Made by a program: the position numbers and the translations under genes. Source: Bacteroidia bacterium (GTDB taxonomy: Bacteria > Bacteroidota > Bacteroidia > B-17B0 > Aurantibacillaceae). Taken from it: 64,000 bases of DNA. The stretch's first letter is position 1. Each line of letters starts with the position of its first letter. The notes beneath the pieces are model-generated. The model worked only from the letters and a program-made list of their open reading frames with translations. It did no database searches and was not told where the DNA came from. Shown piece by piece: positions 16,429 to 53,871 of this stretch. The stretch is from positions 62,001 to 126,000 of the forward strand of contig JALHRL010000002.1 of the NCBI GenBank assembly GCA_022841465.1, in the 5' to 3' direction.

Positions 16429-17190
16429 TCACTTCAATTCTACTACCACCGGGCAATGATCGCTATGCATGGCTTCCGGCAAAATAGAGGCCTTTAAAAG
16501 TTGTGACTCAAGACTAGCACTAACCAAATGATAATCAATGCGCCAACCTAAGTTTTTACCTCTTGAACCGGCTCTATAGCTCCACCAACTGTATTGGTGG
16601 GGGTTTTGATTAAAAAACCTAAAACTGTCTATAAAGCCCGAATTAATAAATTTTTCCATCCATTGGCGCTCTTCCGGTAAAAATCCGCTGGTTTTTGCGT
16701 TAGAAACCGGGTTGTGTATATCAATAGCTTTATGGCAAATATTAAAATCTCCACTTAAAATTAGGTTAGTTTGCTTTTTTTTCAAATCATGTGCATAATC
16801 GTAAAAAAAATCAAGCCATTCCATCTTAAAAGCTTGGCGTTCTTCTCCACTGCTGCCGCTTGGGTGGTAAACACTCATCACAGAGCAATTTTTAAAATCG
16901 GCACGTATAATTCTTCCTTCATCGTCGTACTTCTTTTCGCCACAGCCATAAGAAACATTTATTGGTTCTTCTTTCGAAAAAATTGCAACGCCGCTATATC
17001 CTTTTTTTTGTGCCGGATACCAATAATGATGGTAGCCCATTTCCTCTAATTCAAAAACGCCAACTTGTTCAGGCGATGCTTTTATTTCTTGTAAGCACAA
17101 AACATCCGGATTAGCGCTTTTCATCCAATCTATAAATCCTTTAGAAATGGCTGCTCTAATGCCATTTACATTATACGATATTACCTTCAT
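16429..17190 (-). CDS. xth: Exodeoxyribonuclease III
   Basis: AP endonuclease/3'-5' exonuclease of base-excision repair, 253 residues, cytosolic. Hallmarks of the exonuclease-endonuclease-phosphatase fold are all present: SYNVNGIRAA (5-14), LCLQEIKA (E at about 38), the catalytic SGDFNICH (D near 145), WRIDYHLVS (D near 222) and the terminal HSDHCPVVVEL with catalytic His. Length and order match ExoIII. It is preceded by a 92-base divergent gap shared with the large outer-membrane protein gene and ends 146 bases before the lipoprotein gene. Confidence 0.95.
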   Translation of the reverse strand: MKVISYNVNGIRAAISKGFIDWMKSANPDVLCLQEIKASPEQVGVFELEEMGYHHYWYPAQKKGYSGVAIFSKEEPINVSYGCGEKKYDDEGRIIRADFKNCSVMSVYHPSGSSGEERQAFKMEWLDFFYDYAHDLKKKQTNLILSGDFNICHKAIDIHNPVSNAKTSGFLPEERQWMEKFINSGFIDSFRFFNQNPHQYSWWSYRAGSRGKNLGWRIDYHLVSASLESQLLKASILPEAMHSDHCPVVVELK

Positions 17191-17282
17191 TTATTTTATT
17201 TTGAGGGAATTAAAATATTAATTCTGCTACACTCATTTAAACAAAACCTTGCACAATTTACTAACTTTAAAAACGTTTAATT

Positions 17283-20200
17283 ATGGTGCTTAAAAAACGG
17301 GGTGTTTGGATATTTGTTTGCATGATGTTTTCTTGTGCTATTGCGTTTGGGCAGTTTTTAGGTCCTAATCGAATTAAAACAATTAAACCGCTAAACGACA
17401 CTATTTATCTTGACTCACTAAGCATAGTAGAGGGCAGTGTAAATTTTCCTTCATTAAGTTCAGATTCAAGTGCACTTCCAAAAATAGATTACACTATTGG
17501 CGCAATAATATTTCAAGGAAAAAAACCGGATAGTATATTGGTTGAATACAAAGTTTTTCCAATAAATTTTAAAGAAACTTATTTTCATAAGGATATAAAA
17601 AATTTATATTCCGATTTTTCGAGAGCCGACAAGCCCTTTACTATTAAATTTGATAAAGATAAATCCTCGGTTAATTCATTATTAAAAAATGATGGATTAA
17701 ATAAAAACGGCAATATAAGCAGGGGCTTAACATTTGGCAATAATCAAGATGCGGTGCTAAGTTCAAATTTAAACTTACAAGTTTCCGGAAAGCTTACACC
17801 TGAAATAGATATTTTAATGGCCGCTACAGATAACAATATTCCTTTTCAAGCTGATGGTACCACAGCGCAACTTCAAGAATTTGATAAAGTATTTATTCAG
17901 TTAAACAACGATAAAACAAAACTAATTGTTGGAGATTATCAATTATCTAAACCTTCCAACTCTTACTTTATGAATTTTTACAAGAGGGCACAAGGTTTAA
18001 GTTTTGAAAATGTATTTATTGATAGCGCCTTAAAAAATCCGCTAAAATTTAATACGCGAATTGCCGGAGCTATATCGCGCGGTAAATTTTCGAGGCAAGT
18101 GTTTTTTGGAATTGAAAATAACCAAGGTCCGTATAGATTAAGAGGAGCAGATAATGAGCCGTTTATAATTATTTTAAGTGGTACAGAAAAAATTTACATA
18201 GATGGAAAACTATTATTACGAGGTCAGGAAAATGATTACATAATAGATTACAATACCGGTGAAATTAGCTTTACGGCAAGGCAAATTATTACAAAAGATA
18301 AAAGAATAATTGCCGAATTTCAATATGCAGAAAGAAATTACGCCCGTTCGTTATTTAATTTTGGTGAAGAAATTGAAGGGAAAAAAGCGAAAGTATATTT
18401 TAATTTCTTTAGCGAACAGGATAACAAAAACCGGTCGCTACAACAATCTTTAAGTCAAGATCAAAAAAACATTTTAATAGAAGTTGGTGACTCACTGCAA
18501 AATGCATTTTTTAGCGGAGAACAATTAGCCGATTTTAACACAGCTGATGTTTTTTATAGAAAGTTAGATACTATAGTAAATAGCATCTTATACACATCGG
18601 TATACGTGTATAGCACAAATCCTGACAGTGCTAAATACCAAGTGCGCTTTAGTAATGTTGGTGCAGGAAATGGAAATTATGTACAAATTGCATCTGCTGC
18701 AAATGGAAAAGTATATCAGTGGCGCGAACCGGTAGGAGGTATTCCGCAAGGGAATTACCAACCGGTTATTTTGTTGGTTACCCCTAAACAAAGTCAGTTA
18801 CTAACCTCCGGTGTTGTTTATTCTATAACGCCATTAAATACGGTGCAATTTGAGGGAGCTTATTCTAAAAACGATATAAATACATTTAGTAGTGCAGGAA
18901 AAGGAAATGATGAAGGTGCCGGGTTTAAGCTGATTGGAAAAAACGAAACATTTTTAAAAAATGATTCATTAAAAACAAAAGACACTAAAATTATTTACAA
19001 TTTTAATTATGAGTACGTACAAAAAACATTTAAACAAATAGAACGTTTTAGAACCATAGAGTTTGAAAGAGATTGGAACCGACAACAGAATGTGTTTTCT
19101 TTAAACGACCAACACATTGGTTCGGCTGAATTGGGTTTTATAAAAAGTACTTTTTTTAAAACAGTATATCAATTAAATGTATTTAGCGAGGGAGAAAATT
19201 TTTCTGGAATACGGCACAATTTACTTAATAGTGTTTCAAAAAAAGGTTTTAATGCGCAATACAATGGTTCGTTTTTAAAAAGCAACGATCAATTAATTAA
19301 TTCAGAGTTTTACAGGCACAAATCTCTTGTTTCACAAAAAGTAAAAAAAATAAAATTTACTTATATTGACGATTTTGAAAACAACAAATTTAAAATAGAT
19401 AGCACCTCCAAATACTCGCCACGCACTTATCAGTTTTGGGAGTGGGAAGGCAGTATAAGCAACTCCGATTCGAGTAAAAATTTTTATAAATTGTTTTATA
19501 AAGAAAGACGAGATAAACAAGTTTACGCGAATGATATTAAAGACAGTACTTTTGCAACCAGCATTGGTTTTCAGGCAAATTTAACCAGCATTAAAAACAA
19601 TCCATTAACTGTATTTATTACTTATAGGGAACTAAAATTAATAAATGCCCAACAAGGTTTTTTAAAACCGGATAACACCTTCTTAAATAGACTAGAGTAC
19701 AATCCTCGATTTTTTAAAGGACTAATTACACTTGGCATATTTTACGAAACCGGCTATGGTTTAGAAAACAGAAAAGAATTTTTTTATATTGAAGTAGCAC
19801 CGGGGCAAGGACAGTTTACCTGGATAGATTATAACGAAGATGGGATTAAACAATTAAATGAGTTTGAAATTGCTCAATTTTCTGATCAGGCAAAATACAT
19901 TCGCGTGTATAGCCCAACCAACGAATATGTAAAAGTATTACAAAACCAGTTGAGTGGAAACTTAACCATTAGACCTAGTAATTTAATACGAAATCCAAAA
20001 AATAGCACACAGCGTTTAACTAATAGATTTGCCTTACAAACTGCTTTTAGGATAGATAATAAAACAGGTGATAACGGTGATGCTATTTATTTTAATCCAT
20101 TATTAAATATTAATGATAGTTTAATGATTGCTGGTACAAGAAACCTTAGGCAAAGTGTATTTTACAATCAATCATCTGCTGTTTTTGGAGGAGATTATAC

Positions 20201-20783
20201 TTATACCAACAATTCGTCAAAACAATTATTAAATGGAGGCATTGAAACAAAACTGCTGGAATCGCACGAATTAAAATGGCGCGTTAACTTTTTGAAATGG
20301 TTTACTTTTAATTCTGATGTTTTAACAGGACGTAAAACAAACTACTCTTTATTATTTGCAAATAGAAACTATGAAATTGACATGCTGGAGGCAGAAAGTA
20401 AACTAAGCTATCAACCCGGAACTATTTTTAGAATTAGTGCTTCTTACAAATATTCTGAAAAGAAAAATATATACGAATTGGGCAACGAGAAAGCATTCAT
20501 TAATACGTTTGGCACAGAAATAAAATACAATCAAACAGATAAGGGAAGCATATTAGCTCGTGCCGATTTTCATTTAATCTATTACAACGGCAGTAATACA
20601 AGCGCTGTTGCCTATGAAATGCTAAATGGCTTAAACAGGGGAGAAAACTATACCTGGGAATTAAGTTACCAGCGCAATGTAAATGCTAACGTACAAATAA
20701 GTATAAACTATAACGGAAGAAAAACCGGCACTTCATCTAACATTGTTCATATTGGCGGCGGAACAGTAAGGGCTTATTTTTAA
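17283..20783 (+). CDS. Large predicted outer-membrane protein with SprA-like segments, function unknown
   Basis: 1166 residues with an N-terminal signal peptide (VWIFVCMMFSCAIAFGQ, cut about residue 23). Three segments stand out: GNISRGLTFGNNQDAVLSSN (about 142-161) followed by LNLQVSGKLTPEIDI; LSGTEKIYIDGKLL (about 299-312) with ENDYIIDYNTGEISFTARQI; and the acidic loop WIDYNEDGIKQLNEFEIAQF (about 852-871), which resembles a calcium-binding loop. These resemble SprA-type cell-surface proteins of Bacteroidota, but the protein is less than half the length of SprA. The C-terminal 300 residues are rich in alternating polar/aromatic strands and end with VRAYF, a terminal aromatic typical of outer-membrane barrels. 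The gene stands alone on the plus strand, divergent from xth, and ends at a bidirectional terminator. I cannot assign a function. Confidence 0.7.
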   Translation: MVLKKRGVWIFVCMMFSCAIAFGQFLGPNRIKTIKPLNDTIYLDSLSIVEGSVNFPSLSSDSSALPKIDYTIGAIIFQGKKPDSILVEYKVFPINFKETYFHKDIKNLYSDFSRADKPFTIKFDKDKSSVNSLLKNDGLNKNGNISRGLTFGNNQDAVLSSNLNLQVSGKLTPEIDILMAATDNNIPFQADGTTAQLQEFDKVFIQLNNDKTKLIVGDYQLSKPSNSYFMNFYKRAQGLSFENVFIDSALKNPLKFNTRIAGAISRGKFSRQVFFGIENNQGPYRLRGADNEPFIIILSGTEKIYIDGKLLLRGQENDYIIDYNTGEISFTARQIITKDKRIIAEFQYAERNYARSLFNFGEEIEGKKAKVYFNFFSEQDNKNRSLQQSLSQDQKNILIEVGDSLQNAFFSGEQLADFNTADVFYRKLDTIVNSILYTSVYVYSTNPDSAKYQVRFSNVGAGNGNYVQIASAANGKVYQWREPVGGIPQGNYQPVILLVTPKQSQLLTSGVVYSITPLNTVQFEGAYSKNDINTFSSAGKGNDEGAGFKLIGKNETFLKNDSLKTKDTKIIYNFNYEYVQKTFKQIERFRTIEFERDWNRQQNVFSLNDQHIGSAELGFIKSTFFKTVYQLNVFSEGENFSGIRHNLLNSVSKKGFNAQYNGSFLKSNDQLINSEFYRHKSLVSQKVKKIKFTYIDDFENNKFKIDSTSKYSPRTYQFWEWEGSISNSDSSKNFYKLFYKERRDKQVYANDIKDSTFATSIGFQANLTSIKNNPLTVFITYRELKLINAQQGFLKPDNTFLNRLEYNPRFFKGLITLGIFYETGYGLENRKEFFYIEVAPGQGQFTWIDYNEDGIKQLNEFEIAQFSDQAKYIRVYSPTNEYVKVLQNQLSGNLTIRPSNLIRNPKNSTQRLTNRFALQTAFRIDNKTGDNGDAIYFNPLLNINDSLMIAGTRNLRQSVFYNQSSAVFGGDYTYTNNSSKQLLNGGIETKLLESHELKWRVNFLKWFTFNSDVLTGRKTNYSLLFANRNYEIDMLEAESKLSYQPGTIFRISASYKYSEKKNIYELGNEKAFINTFGTEIKYNQTDKGSILARADFHLIYYNGSNTSAVAYEMLNGLNRGENYTWELSYQRNVNANVQISINYNGRKTGTSSNIVHIGGGTVRAYF

Positions 20784-20785
20784 AT

Positions 20786-20822
20786 AAAAAAAGCTGATAA
20801 ATTTTACACTTATCAGCTTTTT
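20786..20822. terminator. Bidirectional rho-independent terminator between convergent genes
   Basis: A 10-bp perfect stem AAGCTGATAA/TTATCAGCTT (20791-20800 with 20810-20819) with a 9-base loop, flanked by A runs on the left and T runs on the right. It serves both the large outer-membrane protein gene and the converging PorE-like gene. Confidence 0.9.
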
Positions 20823-20837
20823 GTTAATCCTACTAAA

Positions 20838-22454
20838 TTATTTTTTAAGCAAAAATCCTTTTTCTAAAACTACTGTTTCTTTAGCACCTAATTTTAATTC
20901 AAAGCTTTCATTTATTTCCTGAAACCCTTTTTTAATTACTTTTATTTTATAGTTAACACCACCTTTAAGCGTTAAAAAATATTCGCCATTTTCATTTGTT
21001 GATGTTGACGCAATTTGTGAACCCGCATCATCGGTGATCACAATTTCAGTTTCCGGTAAACCATATCCTTCGTAACCATCTCTAACGGTTCCTTTTAAAA
21101 TACTTAAACCATCGTTTGTTTTACTTTTGTTATCCTTTTCTAAAATTGCGTAATCTTTCAAATCTATCACATAAATATCATTTTCGCCTAAACCGCCAGC
21201 GCGTTCACTTGAAAAATATGCCAGTTTTCCATTGGCGCTTATGGTTAACTGCCCTTCTTTAGAAGAGCTATTAATTGGGTAGCCTAAATTAACAGGTTCA
21301 CTCCACTTTTTATTTTCATATACTGTTTTAAAAATATCGTAACTACCCATGCTATTTGGTCCGTTACTGCAAAAGAATAAAGTTTTGCCATCCGGTGCTA
21401 AAAACATTCCACCTTCATCATAAGCAGAGTTAACCGGAGCTCCTAAGTTTACCGGCTTGCCCCACTCTTTCTTATTTATTTTTTCTATCATCCAAATATC
21501 GCTTCCTCCTAAACCCCCTGGGCGTTCGCTGGTAAAAAACAATCTTTTTCCATCGGGAGAAATACAAGCTCCACCTTCCCAATAACTTGAAGCTAATGGT
21601 TTGCCGAAAGGCTCAGGAGTTCTCCATTTGCCATTGTTTACTTTACTAACAAACACATCTCCACCACGTGAAGCTTTATCATTAATATCATTTTTATATA
21701 AAAAAATTTGTTTACCATCGGGAGAAATGCTGGTACAGGCATCATGCGCTTTTGTGTTTACAGAACCCGGTACCGGCTTAGCATTGGTAAATGAAGCGCT
21801 GGCAGTATCATAGGTTGCAATATATACATCTTCAAAATATTTTCCATCGCCTTCTACATCTACTTCAGAGTTTGTGGTTTCGGGTCTTCTAGTTGTAAAA
21901 ACCAAAGTTGTACCATCTGCGGTAATACAAGGGTTTTTATCATCATAAATACTGTTTATTCCTGAACCCAAGTTTTTTATTTCTACATTAATTGGAGTTG
22001 AAATTAATTTTTTGGCAATGTTACATTGATTAATAAAAACGGTGGCATCTTGACTGTCTACATCATCGGCTTTAGCGTTTGCGGTACATAAATTAAATTC
22101 TTTAATGGCTTCATCAAAATTATCTTCCTTTTGGTAAATTTTTCCTAAGATAAAATGAGTGGCTCCTTTATTTGGATTTAATTCAATTGATTTATTTAAC
22201 TCTTCTTTTGCTTTATCTATTTTCCCCAACATAAAACTACAGTAGCCCATATAGTAAAAAACATTTGGATCGTTAGGTGAGGTTTTAGAAATTTCTTTAA
22301 AAGAATTGTAGGCTGCAACAAATTGGCCTGCATAAACTTTTTGTTTTGCTAATTCTATTTTTGCTTTATCTGCCGTATTGGTAAACATGTTTCCTTTTTG
22401 CGCTAATGAAATAGTGCTGATAAGGATAAATAAAATGAATAAAATTCTGCTCAT
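20838..22454 (-). CDS. PorE-like protein: TPR, five-bladed PD40 propeller, carboxypeptidase-regulatory-like domain
   Basis: About 538 residues from the ATG at 22454, which begins a signal peptide (MSRILFILFILISTISLAQ); a TTG 33 bases upstream would only lengthen the leader. Domain order: TPRs (about 25-135, e.g. NVFYYMGYCSFMLGKIDKAK), five PD40/WD40-like repeats (about 170-415, each with a core such as SPDGKRLFFTSERPGGLGGS or SANGKLAYFSSERAGGLGEN), then a carboxypeptidase-regulatory-like beta sandwich (about 440-530; LKGTVRDGYEGYGLPETEIV). This is the order of PorE of the type IX secretion system, but the C-terminal OmpA peptidoglycan-binding domain of PorE is absent: the protein ends right after the sandwich. 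It converges with the large outer-membrane protein gene. Role in T9SS or another surface complex is inferred. Confidence 0.75.
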   Translation of the reverse strand: MSRILFILFILISTISLAQKGNMFTNTADKAKIELAKQKVYAGQFVAAYNSFKEISKTSPNDPNVFYYMGYCSFMLGKIDKAKEELNKSIELNPNKGATHFILGKIYQKEDNFDEAIKEFNLCTANAKADDVDSQDATVFINQCNIAKKLISTPINVEIKNLGSGINSIYDDKNPCITADGTTLVFTTRRPETTNSEVDVEGDGKYFEDVYIATYDTASASFTNAKPVPGSVNTKAHDACTSISPDGKQIFLYKNDINDKASRGGDVFVSKVNNGKWRTPEPFGKPLASSYWEGGACISPDGKRLFFTSERPGGLGGSDIWMIEKINKKEWGKPVNLGAPVNSAYDEGGMFLAPDGKTLFFCSNGPNSMGSYDIFKTVYENKKWSEPVNLGYPINSSSKEGQLTISANGKLAYFSSERAGGLGENDIYVIDLKDYAILEKDNKSKTNDGLSILKGTVRDGYEGYGLPETEIVITDDAGSQIASTSTNENGEYFLTLKGGVNYKIKVIKKGFQEINESFELKLGAKETVVLEKGFLLKK

Positions 22455-22596
22455 AAAAATTTCTTGCTTATTACAACCAATGTACAAAAATTTTGCGTGT
22501 TTAAAATTAATTTTTTTAATAAAATATCGAAAATAATTAATAGCAACACTTTAGTGAGAACAAGGCTTTTGTGGTTTATGAAAATTATATATTAAA

Positions 22597-22623: not shown

Positions 22624-23220
22624 TTACTTTGTACCCTTACTTGGTGTTGGTGACTTTTGAGGCGTTGGTGATTTTTGAGGGCTATTATTTGCTCCCGGAA
22701 TTACAGCAGCAGGCATTGTATCAAGTTTCTTTTTAACAGCAGCTAAAATATCATCTGCCGGTTCGGTATACAATACATTTCCCATACTTGTATCTAATAC
22801 ATATTTGTATCCGCTTTCTTTTGCAACTGCTTCAATACCTTTTTTTGCTTTATCCATTATAGGTTGAGTTAGTTGCCCGTATTTCATTTGATAATCTTGT
22901 TGTGCTTGGCCTCTAAAATCTTCTATACGACGTTGCATTTGAGTAAGCTCTTCTTCTTTGGTTTTTCTAACCAAATCACTCATTCCTTCAGCGGCACTCA
23001 TATAGTCAGTATATTTTTTCTGAAACTCGTCGCTCATTTTAGCAACTTCGCTTTCTAACGATTTTAAATAATTTTGCGCCACTTCTTTCGCCACTTTTGT
23101 TTCCGGCATAAGGCTTACAAGCGAATCTAAACTAATGTGCGCAATTTTTTGCGCATTCATACTTCCAATAAAAAATAGTGCGAAAACTATTATTATTCCT
23201 TTTTTAATTGAGCTTTTCAT
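22624..23220 (-). CDS. OmpH/Skp family periplasmic chaperone (second copy)
   Basis: 198 residues with a signal peptide (IIIVFALFFIGSMNAQ), then the Skp pattern: a short strand KIAHISLDSLVSLMPETK, a long charged coiled coil (about 45-115) and a conserved end YKYVLDTSMGNVLYTEPADD. Skp binds unfolded outer-membrane proteins in the periplasm and hands them to the Bam machinery. The C-terminal 25 residues are a Pro/Lys/Ser tail with a repeated QKSPTP unit that is not part of the Skp fold. It follows another Skp gene by 20 bases, last in the bamA operon and closed by a terminator. Confidence 0.88.
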   Translation of the reverse strand: MKSSIKKGIIIVFALFFIGSMNAQKIAHISLDSLVSLMPETKVAKEVAQNYLKSLESEVAKMSDEFQKKYTDYMSAAEGMSDLVRKTKEEELTQMQRRIEDFRGQAQQDYQMKYGQLTQPIMDKAKKGIEAVAKESGYKYVLDTSMGNVLYTEPADDILAAVKKKLDTMPAAVIPGANNSPQKSPTPQKSPTPSKGTK

Positions 23221-23240
23221 TGTATTTATTTTTATTTTAT

Positions 23241-23762
23241 TTATTTTTTGTACCCTAATAAATTTAAAACATCGTCGCTAAGATCGTATTTAGCATTTGC
23301 ATAAAGGATTGAAACCTGTCCGGCTTTATCTAATACAAATCCCAATCCTCTTTTTTCTGCTGTTGTTTTAATGGCATTATACACTTTATCTTGAATTGGC
23401 TTTACTAATTCTATTCGTTTCTTAAACAATTCGCCATCCACTCCAAATCGTTGTTTTTGTAAATCTTTTGCTTCTTTTTCTTTATTTAAAATTTCGTTTT
23501 CCCTTTTCTTTTTCATGTCATCGGTTAATAATACGGCATCTGATTGATATGCTTTATAGAGTTTGTCAATTTCGGTATACTTTGCTTCAATTTCTTTTTG
23601 CCATTGCACGCTCATTTTATCTAATTCCGATTGAGCTGCTTTGTATTCGGGAATTTGGCTTAATATGTAATCTGTATCAACATAGCCAAACTTTGCAGCG
23701 GTTTGCGCATTAATGTTTATTGCCGAAACAATTAAAACAATTATTAAAACTAATTTTTTCAT
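23241..23762 (-). CDS. OmpH/Skp family periplasmic chaperone (first copy)
   Basis: 173 residues: signal peptide (LVLIIVLIVSAININAQ), a KFGYVDTDYILSQIPEYK strand typical of OmpH, a coiled-coil hairpin about residues 40-120, and a GLGFVLDKAGQVSILYANAK end. The same family as the next gene but clearly diverged from it. It sits 61 bases downstream of bamA. In Bacteroidota two OmpH genes behind bamA is the usual arrangement. ATG start. Confidence 0.9.
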   Translation of the reverse strand: MKKLVLIIVLIVSAININAQTAAKFGYVDTDYILSQIPEYKAAQSELDKMSVQWQKEIEAKYTEIDKLYKAYQSDAVLLTDDMKKKRENEILNKEKEAKDLQKQRFGVDGELFKKRIELVKPIQDKVYNAIKTTAEKRGLGFVLDKAGQVSILYANAKYDLSDDVLNLLGYKK

Positions 23763-23823
23763 TCTTATTATTTTACTTTCATAAAACGTGCCAATTTACA
23801 CATTTATTTGAAATTAACGTTTT

Positions 23824-26415
23824 TTAAAGCTCTCCTAACATCCCACCTATTGTAAAATGGAATTGTCCTTTACCGTTACCAGCGCCCCTTTGCCCAATAT
23901 CATCAAAGCCCCAACCATAATCTAATCCTAATAAACCAAACATTGGTAAAAATACTCTTAAGCCAATACCGGCGCTGCGTTTCACCTGAAAAGGATTAAA
24001 TGTTTTAAAACTTTCATAAGAATTCCCTGCTTCTGCAAAACCCAAAACAAAAATGGTTGCCTGAGGGTTTAATGTAATGGGGTAACGTAGTTCCATGGTG
24101 TAACGCGAAACAATGGGGTCGCCGGTTTGAGCAGAAAGAGAATTATCGGGGTAACCGCGTAATGCAATAATTTCGCGAGCCACAAAATTTTGAAAACCGC
24201 TTAAGCCACTGCCTCCCATATAAAACCTTTCAAAAGGAGAAAAGCCAACATTTTTATTGTAGTAAGCTAAGAAACCGTATCCTATTTTGGTGCGCAACAC
24301 TAAATTACGTGCCTCTTTTCCTTCGGCTGCTTTTTTATTGGTAAGCTGGGTAAACCATTCTGCAGTAATTTTATATTTCTGATATTCTATAAACTTAAAC
24401 TTTTCAGACAATGATAAATCGGCATAATTTTTACCATTAAATAAGGAATAAGGTGGAGTTAACTGACCGAAAAACGTAAAGTTAGAACCTGTTTTTGGGT
24501 AAATGGGCTGATCAATAGAATTGCGTTGAAAGGTGAAGTTTGTATTAATATCGTGAGCAAAACCATTTCTAAAAACAAATGCATTATAATTTATCAATTC
24601 ATAGTAATTGTAGTTTAAAGAATTAAACATGCTAAAATAATTATCAGGCCAAATTAATCTGCGTCCGAAATTTACTGAAGTGCCGTAAATACTCATGCTT
24701 GCATGATTAGGGTTTGCGGCTTTTAAGGCCTTGTTTACATATTTTGCTTCGCCATTTGCAAATACAGAATTAAAGGCAGAAACGGTAAGTGAATTGGGTT
24801 TTTTACCGCCGAGCCAAGGTTCGGTAAAGGAAAAATTAAAAGAGCGATAAAATTTTCCGTTGGTTTGCCCGCGGATAGACAATCGCTGACCATCCCCACT
24901 TGGTAAAGGACGCCACGATTCTTTTTTAAAGAAGTTATGTAGTGAGAAATTATTAAAAACAACTCCTAATGTTCCAATTATACCTACGCCGCCAACGCCT
25001 GTTGTCATAGGGCCTCCCATAAAATTATTTCTCCTTCCACCGTAACCGCCGCTTAATTCTATTTGATCGCTTGGTTTTTCTTCAACGGTATATTCTATAT
25101 CAACGGTTCCGTCGGCAGGGTTTGGCGTAGGAACCACATTCATTTTTTCGGGATTAAAAAATGTAAGCTGTGCTAATTCGCGTTGTGTTCTGATGATATC
25201 TGAACGGCGAAACAATTGACCCGGTTTTGTTCTTATTTCTCTGTAAATAACATGATCGTTTGTTTTGTCGTTTCCTTTAACCGTTACTTTATTAATGGTT
25301 GCCTGTTTTCCTTCATAAATAATAACATCGTAGTTAATGGTATCATTACTAACATTGCTTTCTTGAGGTGAAAGATTAAAAAACAAATAACCATCGTCCA
25401 TATAAAGCGAAGAAATATCGTACCCATTAGGGTTCATGTATAATTTTTGGTCTAGTTTTGATTGATTATATACATCGCCCGGTTTTATATTTAGTATGGT
25501 ATCTAGCTGAGAGCTTCTATACTTTGTGTTTCCATACCAATTAAATTTTCCAAAATAATATTTATTTCCTTCATCAATTTTAATATCAATATTTACTCTG
25601 TTTGGGCCCACAAAGTAAACAGTATCTTTTGCAACACGAGCATCTCTGTATCCTTTTATGTTATACTTTTCGGCAATAGAAGGCAATTCGCTTTTTAAAT
25701 TTTCTTCTAAATACTTTCCGGAGTTAAATACATTGTACCAACGATAGCGTTTGCTTTCTTTTAATTTTCTTCTTAATTGCCAATCTTTAAAAACGGTGTT
25801 TCCTTCAATGTTTACATCTTGTATGCGCACCTTTTTACCTTTGTTAACGTTAATGGTTAAAATAACATGAGGTGTTTTTGTTGTTAAATCTTTATCTAAA
25901 ATTACATCCACTTTTGCAAAGTAAAATCCCTTGTTCATATAGTGATCTTGTACCGTATTTTTAATAGAACCAATTAGGTAATCAGTAATTACGCGTTCTT
26001 TCATTAATCTAATTCTTCCTCTAATATCATCTGCATCGCTTTTTCTCACATCTCCCTTAAAAGCAAACTTAGATAGTCGTGGGCGTTCCACAACTTTAAT
26101 TACTAAAAAAACATCGTTTCCAATTACTTTTTCTTTATAAATTTCAATGTTTTCAAAAAGACTTTGTTTCCATAAAGCTTTTATGGCATCTGTAATTTTA
26201 TCGCCGGGTATGGCAATAGTTTCTCCTACGGTAAGGTTGGCTATAAGGGCAATTACATTTTTATCGGAATTATCTGCGCCCTCAATTCTTACGCCACCTA
26301 TTTTGTATTTTTTTGAAATTTTTGCGCTTTCAAGTAACAAGCTATCTTGGTTTTGACCAAAAGAAAAGAATGCAAACAACGAGAATAGAAATATGCTTAA
26401 GTGTTGTTTACTCAT
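23824..26415 (-). CDS. bamA: Outer-membrane protein assembly factor BamA
   Basis: Central barrel of the Bam complex that inserts beta-barrel proteins into the outer membrane; 863 residues. Signal peptide (LSIFLFSLFAFFSFGQ), then tandem POTRA domains (about 37-470; e.g. KIGGVRIEGADNSDKNVIAL, GKKVRIQDVNIEGNTVFKDW, QATINKVTVKGNDKTNDHVI), then the 16-strand barrel. The barrel has the conserved FYMGGSGLSGF and REIIALRGYPDNSLS stretches; the latter holds the RGY/F loop that plugs the barrel. It ends GQFHFTIGGMLGEL. Its ATG overlaps the uppS stop by one base (TAATG), so translation is coupled. Two skp genes follow. Confidence 0.96.
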   Translation of the reverse strand: MSKQHLSIFLFSLFAFFSFGQNQDSLLLESAKISKKYKIGGVRIEGADNSDKNVIALIANLTVGETIAIPGDKITDAIKALWKQSLFENIEIYKEKVIGNDVFLVIKVVERPRLSKFAFKGDVRKSDADDIRGRIRLMKERVITDYLIGSIKNTVQDHYMNKGFYFAKVDVILDKDLTTKTPHVILTINVNKGKKVRIQDVNIEGNTVFKDWQLRRKLKESKRYRWYNVFNSGKYLEENLKSELPSIAEKYNIKGYRDARVAKDTVYFVGPNRVNIDIKIDEGNKYYFGKFNWYGNTKYRSSQLDTILNIKPGDVYNQSKLDQKLYMNPNGYDISSLYMDDGYLFFNLSPQESNVSNDTINYDVIIYEGKQATINKVTVKGNDKTNDHVIYREIRTKPGQLFRRSDIIRTQRELAQLTFFNPEKMNVVPTPNPADGTVDIEYTVEEKPSDQIELSGGYGGRRNNFMGGPMTTGVGGVGIIGTLGVVFNNFSLHNFFKKESWRPLPSGDGQRLSIRGQTNGKFYRSFNFSFTEPWLGGKKPNSLTVSAFNSVFANGEAKYVNKALKAANPNHASMSIYGTSVNFGRRLIWPDNYFSMFNSLNYNYYELINYNAFVFRNGFAHDINTNFTFQRNSIDQPIYPKTGSNFTFFGQLTPPYSLFNGKNYADLSLSEKFKFIEYQKYKITAEWFTQLTNKKAAEGKEARNLVLRTKIGYGFLAYYNKNVGFSPFERFYMGGSGLSGFQNFVAREIIALRGYPDNSLSAQTGDPIVSRYTMELRYPITLNPQATIFVLGFAEAGNSYESFKTFNPFQVKRSAGIGLRVFLPMFGLLGLDYGWGFDDIGQRGAGNGKGQFHFTIGGMLGEL

Positions 26416-51630: not shown

Positions 51631-53871
51631 ATGCATATTAAGCTTAGATATTTTTTTACCGGTATAATAACACTTTTAAGTTTTTATAGTTTATTAGCAA
51701 CACATATTGTTGGCGGAGAAATGTATTACGATAAAATAGGCACCGATTCGTATAGAGTAACCCTTAAAGTTTATAGAGATTGTTTTAATGGGCAAGCACC
51801 TTTTGACGGACAAGCGAATGGAGCTCCTGCCTATTTGCATGTGTTTGATAATTTTGGAACACTCATTCAACAAATTGATTTAGGTCCGCCTGTTGTAACC
51901 CCTGTGCCACCAAGCATTAATAACCCTTGTATACAAACTCCCAATTCAGTTTGTGTTGAAGAGGGAAAATATACATACGTATTAACATTACCGCCAAAAA
52001 CGGGAGGATATCATTTGGTTTATCAACGTTGTTGCCGAAACAATACCATTTTAAATTTAACCAATCCGGGAGGAACCGGTTCAACTTACAAAACATTTAT
52101 CCCCGGCCCGGAACTTGCAGTAAATAATAGTTCGCCGCGCTATGATAATTTTCCTCCTATTTTTATTTGTAATGGAATTTCAGTAAAGTTTGATCACAAA
52201 GCAACAGATCCGGATGGCGATGTTTTAGTTTATTCGCTTTGCGACCCATACAATGGTTTAGATGGTTGCTGCCCAAGCATTGGCACTTTTGGCCCAAATA
52301 CCGGTCCTTCTTGCCCTACACCTCCGCCTTCCTGCCCTACAGTAGCCTCACCACCTCCTTACCCTTTGGTTAATTTTATTACACCTTATAGCGGTTTTTA
52401 TCCTATTTCCTCTAATCCTTCTATTACTATAAATTCCTCTACCGGATTTTTAACCGGAATGCCCAATTTAAACGGACAATGGGTGGTGAATGTTTGTGTT
52501 CAGGAATTTAGAAATAATCAATTATTAAGCACACACTATCGCGATTTTCAATTTAACGTAGTAACCTGTAGTGTAACGGTTTTAAGCGCAGTGGCAGAAC
52601 AAGCCTCGAAATGCATGGGTGATTCTATAACCTTCAACAATCAAAGCATTGGTGCCACCACTTATCATTGGGATTTTGGTGTGGCCGAAATTTTTAGTGA
52701 TACTTCTAACATCAAAAATCCCACTTTTATTTACCCTGACACCGGTGTTTATAATGTTACTTTAATTGCAAATCCCGGTAAGCCTTGTGCAGATACAATT
52801 AGCAAACCATTTTATATTTATCCTAGAATTGATGTAAATTTTTTACCTCCGCAAATTGGGTGTGTAAAAAACAACAACTACAACTTTTCTGTTAATGGAA
52901 CTTATATAAATAATGCAACCTTTAATTGGAATTTTGGTAGCGCAGCAACACCAAGTACATCCGTAATAAAAACGCCATCTAATATTGTATTTAATTCGCC
53001 CGGAAAATATTTTATTAAATTAATTGCAAAACAATATACATGCATAGATTCATTTATTGATACAGTAAGAATTCTTGACAGACCCAAAGCAATTATCTCT
53101 AATTTTCCAACTAGTTTATGTGATCCGGCAAGTGTTGCTTTTAGTAATGGCAGTATAACCGAATATGGCGCAGGATATGTTTGGGAAACAAGCGACGGTA
53201 AAACATATAACTCATTTGAAGCATCGCATGTTTTTTCGCCGCCGGGAGTTTACAGCGTTTCGTTAACTTTAATAAGAAATTTACCATGCCCGGATACCAG
53301 TAAAACCTCCATTAATTCCATAACCGTTAATCCAACTCCGGTAGCAGATTTTGTTTTTAGTCCAACCATAACTACCATTTTTGATCCGGAAATATTTTTT
53401 GAAAATAACTCCAGTACAGATGCCATTACTTTTGATTATGATTTTGGTGATGGAGCTACTTCTGTTTACATGAACGAAAAACACAGCTATTACAAACACG
53501 GAACTTACCCTGTTAGATTAAAAATAAAAAACAGGTTTGATTGCGAAAATCAAATTACTAAAGATGTAAAAATACTTCCTGAATTTAGGTTTTGGGTGCC
53601 TAACACTTTTACTCCGGATGATAACGGTTTAAACGATGTATTTATGCCGATTACAGTTGGTGTACTAGATTATTCTTTTGAACTATTTGACCGCTGGGGA
53701 GAAAAGATATTTTCCACAAACGACCCTATGGTTGGCTGGGACGGAAAACGCAAAGGAAAAAAATGTAAACAAGATGTATACGTTTGGAAAATTAGTTTTA
53801 AAAACGAAGTAGACTTGCGTTATTATCATAAAACGGGGCATGTACTATTACTGAATGATGAAGGCAATTAG
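51631..53871 (+). CDS. T9SS type B sorting domain protein with PKD-like repeats (paralogue 1)
   Basis: 746 residues with signal peptide (FFTGIITLLSFYSLLATHIV). The N-terminal half (about 22-310) carries THIVGGEMYYDKIG, YRVTLKVYRDCFNGQAPFDG, QRCCRNNTIL and STHYRDFQFNV, a conserved Bacteroidota surface module. PKD-type segments follow (about 340-650; e.g. TYHWDFGVAEIF, DYDFGDGATSVYMNEKHSYY). The last 90 residues are the gliding-motility/T9SS type B domain (WVPNTFTPDDNGLNDVFMP, FDRWGEKIFSTNDP, GWDGKRKGKKCKQDVYVW). A Pro/Cys-rich insertion (about 206-245, with SCPTPPPSCPTVASPPPYPL) is missing from the second copy. Divergent from the T9SS type A gene, with 54 bases between start codons. Confidence 0.92.
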   Translation: MHIKLRYFFTGIITLLSFYSLLATHIVGGEMYYDKIGTDSYRVTLKVYRDCFNGQAPFDGQANGAPAYLHVFDNFGTLIQQIDLGPPVVTPVPPSINNPCIQTPNSVCVEEGKYTYVLTLPPKTGGYHLVYQRCCRNNTILNLTNPGGTGSTYKTFIPGPELAVNNSSPRYDNFPPIFICNGISVKFDHKATDPDGDVLVYSLCDPYNGLDGCCPSIGTFGPNTGPSCPTPPPSCPTVASPPPYPLVNFITPYSGFYPISSNPSITINSSTGFLTGMPNLNGQWVVNVCVQEFRNNQLLSTHYRDFQFNVVTCSVTVLSAVAEQASKCMGDSITFNNQSIGATTYHWDFGVAEIFSDTSNIKNPTFIYPDTGVYNVTLIANPGKPCADTISKPFYIYPRIDVNFLPPQIGCVKNNNYNFSVNGTYINNATFNWNFGSAATPSTSVIKTPSNIVFNSPGKYFIKLIAKQYTCIDSFIDTVRILDRPKAIISNFPTSLCDPASVAFSNGSITEYGAGYVWETSDGKTYNSFEASHVFSPPGVYSVSLTLIRNLPCPDTSKTSINSITVNPTPVADFVFSPTITTIFDPEIFFENNSSTDAITFDYDFGDGATSVYMNEKHSYYKHGTYPVRLKIKNRFDCENQITKDVKILPEFRFWVPNTFTPDDNGLNDVFMPITVGVLDYSFELFDRWGEKIFSTNDPMVGWDGKRKGKKCKQDVYVWKISFKNEVDLRYYHKTGHVLLLNDEGN

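Follow-up and report, generated by a model that had tools for sequence, protein, structure and literature searches.

A protein family of Bacteroidota predicted to form a giant outer-membrane barrel and probably distantly related to SprA

The outer-membrane translocon of the type IX secretion system (T9SS) is SprA/Sov, which binds PorV/Plug, SprE and SkpA and moves CTD cargo. Another kind of outer-membrane barrel, that of the ushers (FimD, PapC), has 24 strands and an inserted beta-sandwich plug. SprA/Sov is a 36-strand barrel with a lateral opening, as described in the available part of PMC10994853, and the available part of PMC5445135 describes PorF (PG0534), a P. gingivalis outer-membrane protein required for gingipains, as a 92.3 kDa protein of the TonB-receptor type. 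As references for SprA/Sov we used the models TIGR04189 and PF14349 and the PDB structures 6h3i, 8gl6 and 8gl8.

The protein under study (P0001) is the product of a single intact ORF with an ATG start, located at 17283-20783 on the plus strand of the window (the whole stretch of 64,000 nucleotides that was analysed). These coordinates and the length of 1166 residues are exactly those given in a preliminary description of the locus, and the three motifs quoted there were located at residues 143-162, 298-311 and 847-866, all within stretches that are conserved in the family. The protein has a hydrophobic N-terminus and ends in Phe. The gene had been described as standing alone between terminators and divergent promoters; its isolation and the downstream hairpin hold, and the promoters were not confirmed. 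The upstream neighbour (16429-17190), of the exonuclease type (Exo_endo_phos), is divergent and separated by a gap of 92 bp, and a strong hairpin at 20788-20822 lies between the gene and a convergent gene downstream. A scan for sigma-70-type promoters over 16500-21500 returned 19 sites against 20.5 +/- 5.8 expected (i.e. not above chance), with one weak minus-strand site (17221-17193) and zero plus-strand sites in the 92-bp gap, where a Bacteroidota-type promoter pattern had no match either. The features of the gene and its product are given below in window coordinates, with their basis in brackets.

17283..20783, plus strand: complete gene for a 1166-residue, probably SprA-related outer-membrane barrel protein (ORF and full-length relatives)
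17283..17348, plus strand: N-terminal hydrophobic helix, putative signal peptide, residues 1-22 (sequence; predicted helix 3-21)
17385..17561, plus strand: predicted N-terminal periplasmic beta domain, residues 35-93, possibly a second copy of the Ig-like module (second hhalign match; side from topology)
17700..20777, plus strand: predicted beta barrel, residues 140-1165 including inserts, about 38 strands by hand count (AlphaFold2, strand list, structural alignment with SprA over 135-1166)
18108..18302, plus strand: insert 1, Ig-like beta-sandwich, residues 276-340, predicted extracellular (conservation; hhalign to SprA; fold matches)
18438..18788, plus strand: insert 2, beta-rich, residues 386-502, presumably extracellular from the topology (DSSP; conservation)
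19827..19862, plus strand: EF-hand-like loop D-x-N-x-D-G-x5-E, residues 849-860, inside the long loop 838-881 (conserved pattern)
20745..20780, plus strand: C-terminal strand, residues 1155-1166, with Phe as its last residue, an ending of outer-membrane protein type (F1166; strand 1155-1165)
20788..20822, no strand: hairpin terminator separating convergent genes (folding z = -4.85; also in the terminator scan)

AlphaFold2, run on an alignment of P0001 with 82 relatives (A1, in which 65 relatives come from the 69 other full-length members and 17 from the 20 stretches), gave a model with a mean pLDDT of 87.3 and a pTM of 0.76 that is nearly all beta after the helix at residues 3-21, bar a few short helices. 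Counting by hand in the DSSP string, without coordinates and with the broken strands 254-275, 341-365 and 815-837 taken as continuous, we obtained 38 membrane strands, the first at 140-152 and the last at 1155-1165, with 36-38 as a fair range for the count. Barrel-type beta structure combined with a C-terminal aromatic residue, as in outer-membrane beta-barrels, is thus predicted. The preliminary description had named a structure prediction showing no barrel as an outcome that would speak against it, and a barrel was predicted. The alignments of many porins span residues 136-1166 of the model, an extent compatible with closure of the seam between the first and the last strands. In outer-membrane proteins the C-terminal strand ends in the periplasm, and the longest loops of the model (276-340, 386-502 and 838-881) would therefore be extracellular.

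Conservation (mean majority frequency in A1) is highest in insert 1 (0.68, with 19 of its 65 positions at 90% or more), followed by the last strand (0.64), the EF loop (0.62), strands 1-7 (0.55), insert 2 (0.49) and strands 10-38 before the last (0.38-0.41). The EF-hand pattern is found in 77 of the 83 members, with D849 present in all 83 and E860 in 82, and F1166 is present in 81. The high conservation of insert 1, the EF loop and the first strands suggests that these are the working parts, and from its sequence pattern the EF-hand-like loop may bind calcium. A loop of the same acidic type occurs in the SprA of the same genome (DINRDNTLSETE at residue 1211).

Structural comparison places the model near SprA, although large barrels generally match one another in VIA-align. 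In Foldseek, SprA structures hold ranks 1, 2, 3 and 5 (E-values from 4.8e-11 to 3.9e-8, with low TM-scores of 0.22-0.24), and the best values for SusC and LptD are 2.6e-8 (one SusC chain standing between the SprA ranks) and 3.5e-7. In VIA-align, SprA (8gl6) aligns over 640 residues (model 135-1166 with 132-2401, rmsd 9.1), the longest alignment among the 50 rows listed (the next longest has 497 residues), at a Z of 16.3 that is tied with porins. SprA was not among the matches listed for a model of the fragment 130-390. Like SprA, P0001 would be a large single-chain barrel. Unlike SprA, it has only 1166 residues, whereas the 37 SprA ORFs compared span 2125-2741 aa and the true SprA of the same genome is a 2475-aa ORF on another contig, so the protein is indeed far shorter than SprA, as had been stated.

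The top VIA-align match of the model is an usher (Z 17.7, 366 residues, model 130-805), and like the ushers P0001 has a beta-sandwich domain inserted in its predicted barrel. Usher homology was nevertheless not supported: hhalign gave an E-value of 0.36, no better than shuffles, and a profile of family residues 130-390 (A2) found none of the seven E. coli K-12 ushers. Insert 1, in the fragment model, has a fold that matches phage tail proteins, pilins and adhesin domains. This small module is like the Ig-like domains of phage distal tail and tail-tube proteins (TIGR02217, NF052337, PF09343), with modest Z-scores of 8.0-8.3 over 70-71 residues (rmsd 2.2-2.4), and the corresponding profile matches are weak and below cut-off; those proteins, unlike P0001, are soluble phage parts and have one domain only in common with it. 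PorF is likewise an outer-membrane protein and has a T9SS link, and was the first candidate considered as a named relative, but its description as a 92.3 kDa protein of TonB-receptor type (PMC5445135, available part) led to its rejection.

Judged from its sequence, neither of the two models that define SprA classes P0001 as a SprA. PF14349 (SprA_N) has no match in it at a Pfam E-value of up to 10, the positive control being the SprA of the same genome at 535.9 bits, and the equivalog model TIGR04189 (surface_SprA, curated cut-off 200 bits) matches neither P0001 nor two of its relatives (L109 and L085), the control giving 2383 bits. With its short chain, the protein falls outside SprA/Sov by all three marks. 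The profile search suggested in the preliminary description thus turned out negative, and of the SprA resemblance proposed there a distant relationship survives, indicated by the Foldseek ranking and by one module. In an hhalign comparison of 85 family with 37 SprA sequences, residues 278-378 matched SprA 677-772 at an E-value of 2.2e-7, the N-terminal residues 37-91 matched the same SprA stretch at 0.00097, and a weak colinear match linked 138-276 with SprA 157-293 (E-value 0.08). As controls, reversed SprA gave 0.27 and the best of 40 shuffles in 20-column blocks 1.1e-4; the low values of the block shuffles probably arise because the blocks keep the motif core intact. An earlier comparison of 70 family with 17 SprA sequences gave 4.1e-5 over residues 278-429, the reversed control giving 0.57 and ten shuffles 0.085 at best.

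The A2 profile finds 36 of the 37 SprA sequences at E-values of up to 10 and 13 of them at up to 0.001. The SprA of the same genome is matched weakly (0.1 among the 37), and a search of that whole genome gave no second place at up to 10, SprA included. Across the 198 phylum genomes the profile cross-matches SprA-length ORFs in seven (six beside a SprA_N match, and the seventh, G184, judged by length). Matches of TIGR04189 below its cut-off fall at the same Ig-like module in two relatives (L117, 32.7 bits, E-value 1.1e-8; L122, 14.7 bits, 0.0032), and the full-length family HMM has no SprA match among the loci searched. The sequence link is therefore confined to one Ig-like module of ~95 residues, which is also seen in phage tail-type proteins and pilins. 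One such protein (L153 2791-3954, genome G025), probably of phage tail type, has apparently two copies of the DY...G-x-I-T-F module. A 1050-aa protein of genome G120 (L152 3548-6700), encoded beside a repeat-rich protein, matches A2 over 170 positions at 2.6e-7 and is possibly another relative of the barrel group. Since the module occurs in such proteins, the link could be that of a shared domain only; and since, in addition, the family HMM and the fragment model do not lead to SprA, common descent across the whole barrel, which we infer, rests mainly on the structural match of the model.

The protein had been called an orphan, which does not hold: the family is present in 322 of the 395 genomes sampled from the class (profile search) and in 121 of the 198 sampled from the phylum (single-sequence search). 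The N-terminal profile (A2) found 124 of the 198, of which three (G081, G119 and G151) only cross-match SprA-length ORFs, leaving again 121. A scan of named genome contigs yielded 58 family loci, nearly all labelled Bacteroidota or its subgroups (Pedobacter, Psychroflexus, Aquimarina and Flavobacteriaceae among them), one labelled Saccharibacteria and some naming no group. Copy number per genome, proposed earlier as a check, is one match in most genomes and two or three in a minority, several multi-match genomes of the phylum search representing separate stretches of one place; no second copy was found in the genome of P0001, where the gene is single-copy. The relatives in the full-length family HMM search are 1006-1271 aa long, except for one open frame of 1603 aa (L120). 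This was considered as a domain fusion and rejected, as it has no Pfam match and its extension reads as open frame upstream of a probable signal peptide; the start of the protein probably lies further in. Two shorter divergent members (L122 5259-8339, 1027 aa; L123 5271-8288, 1006 aa) match in separate blocks only. Nothing scored above cut-off in Pfam for P0001 and 13 relatives or in NCBIfam for P0001 and four relatives. Overall, most sampled Bacteroidia genomes (322/395) encode a conserved, predicted giant barrel that these databases do not name. Among 68 stretches (66 of them within the cluster holding the gene) no conserved operon was found, the commonest neighbours being ExoIII-type (in 21) and a solute-binding protein (in 20).

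We would give about even chances to the reading in which P0001, a very large outer-membrane barrel and a distant half-length relative of SprA, works as a gated channel that passes a large substrate. The family itself is probably such a relative and, going by the model, probably a channel-forming giant barrel. A putative signal peptide would direct the protein to the outer membrane, where it would form one very large barrel (~36-38 strands predicted); the two inserted domains and the calcium-type loop would be extracellular, probably capping or gating the lumen, and the small beta domain would hang into the periplasm. The substrate, with a protein or polypeptide as the most plausible kind, would cross the outer membrane through the gated channel without a full T9SS assembly. 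A protein-conducting channel is our best guess, while the secretion pore suggested in the preliminary description is an inference. It is doubtful, if conceivable, that the family is a second giant-barrel protein translocon in most of Bacteroidota, independent of T9SS, whose predicted single-chain barrel would have at least as many strands (~38) as SprA at half its length and would represent the smallest core out of which SprA expanded.

The family may alternatively be an accessory of the T9SS/gliding machinery, e.g. a partner barrel for one cargo class, which we consider unlikely. Such a role would agree with the SprA-like fold found by Foldseek and VIA-align and with an occurrence almost only together with SprA: when the presence lists were compared by eye, the family was found in 121 of 154 SprA-positive and none of 44 SprA-negative phylum genomes, and the class sample of 395 comprised 320 genomes with both, 63 with SprA only, two with the family only (56 and 70% complete, among the 12 SprA-negative ones) and ten with neither. 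This co-occurrence says little, however, as SprA is near-universal in the class (383/395), and the SprA-negative genomes, from their family labels, appear to come from few clades, which makes it weak evidence. Moreover, the absence of the gene from 63 of the 383 SprA-positive class genomes, together with the lack of a conserved operon, argues that any coupling to T9SS is weak. The family is missing from several SprA-bearing lineages, apparently including families with Prevotella and Porphyromonas-like genera, a further difference from SprA. A link to type B secretion signals or gldB was also considered and rejected, as both are found at E-values of up to 1e-5 in all 80 chosen genomes, 40 of which carry the gene while 40 lack it. 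When the curated cut-offs are applied, the type B signal is found in 78 of the 80 and gldB in 57, the latter in 33 of the 40 with the gene vs 24 of the 40 without; this would favour an accessory role, but clades may explain the difference. In addition, mention of the family was not found in literature listings or in the available parts of T9SS papers, the publications covered being PMC5445135, PMC8564354, PMC5053529, PMC4746253, PMC8754138, PMC7323717, PMC9722745, PMC12611786, PMC10994853, PMC9581022 and PMC12635249.

It is somewhat less unlikely that P0001 is an ordinary large transporter (of a nutrient, lipid or polysaccharide) or structural outer-membrane protein, whose likeness to SprA reflects large-barrel geometry and a common Ig-like module. 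In fact, SusC, LptD and TonB-dependent receptors also match in Foldseek at E-values below 1e-5, the Ig-like module is mobile, and a gene that is single-copy in its genome and in no conserved operon would suit such a role. Nevertheless, SprA comes first by Foldseek E-value and has the longest of the VIA-align alignments listed, the A2 profile finds the module in SprA sequences and in no usher, and the Pfam scans list no TonB or porin domain for P0001 (E-values of up to 10) or the 13 relatives (up to 0.1 or 0.01). That the barrel merely anchors extracellular domains, the protein being an adhesin or surface scaffold, seems very improbable. The resemblance of insert 1 to pilin and adhesin domains might suggest it, as might the fact that this insert and the EF loop rank with the best-conserved parts; however, adhesins typically vary in their surface parts, which here are strongly conserved phylum-wide, and the barrel region (140-1165 including inserts) far exceeds the needs of an anchor. 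If, in line with the gated-channel reading, the family conducts proteins, Bacteroidota would have a second large gate or route for export; otherwise, barrels of SprA size would serve other roles. Either way, the family may offer a SprA relative that separates the core of SprA from its additions.

Some neighbouring genes of the window may be mentioned in their own right. The convergent neighbour (20838-22487) combines TPR, PD40 propeller and carboxypeptidase-regulatory-like domains, a layout resembling that of the T9SS protein PorE (PG1058; domain list as given in the available part of PMC5053529), but has no OmpA match at E-values of up to 1e-5. In the region 22624-26415 a BamA-like gene with POTRA repeats comes after two OmpH/Skp-like genes, an arrangement resembling the bamA-skpA locus of F. 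johnsoniae as described in a figure legend. Further downstream, the product of 51631-53871 combines PKD domains with a CHU_C T9SS signal domain and is likely a T9SS cargo protein.
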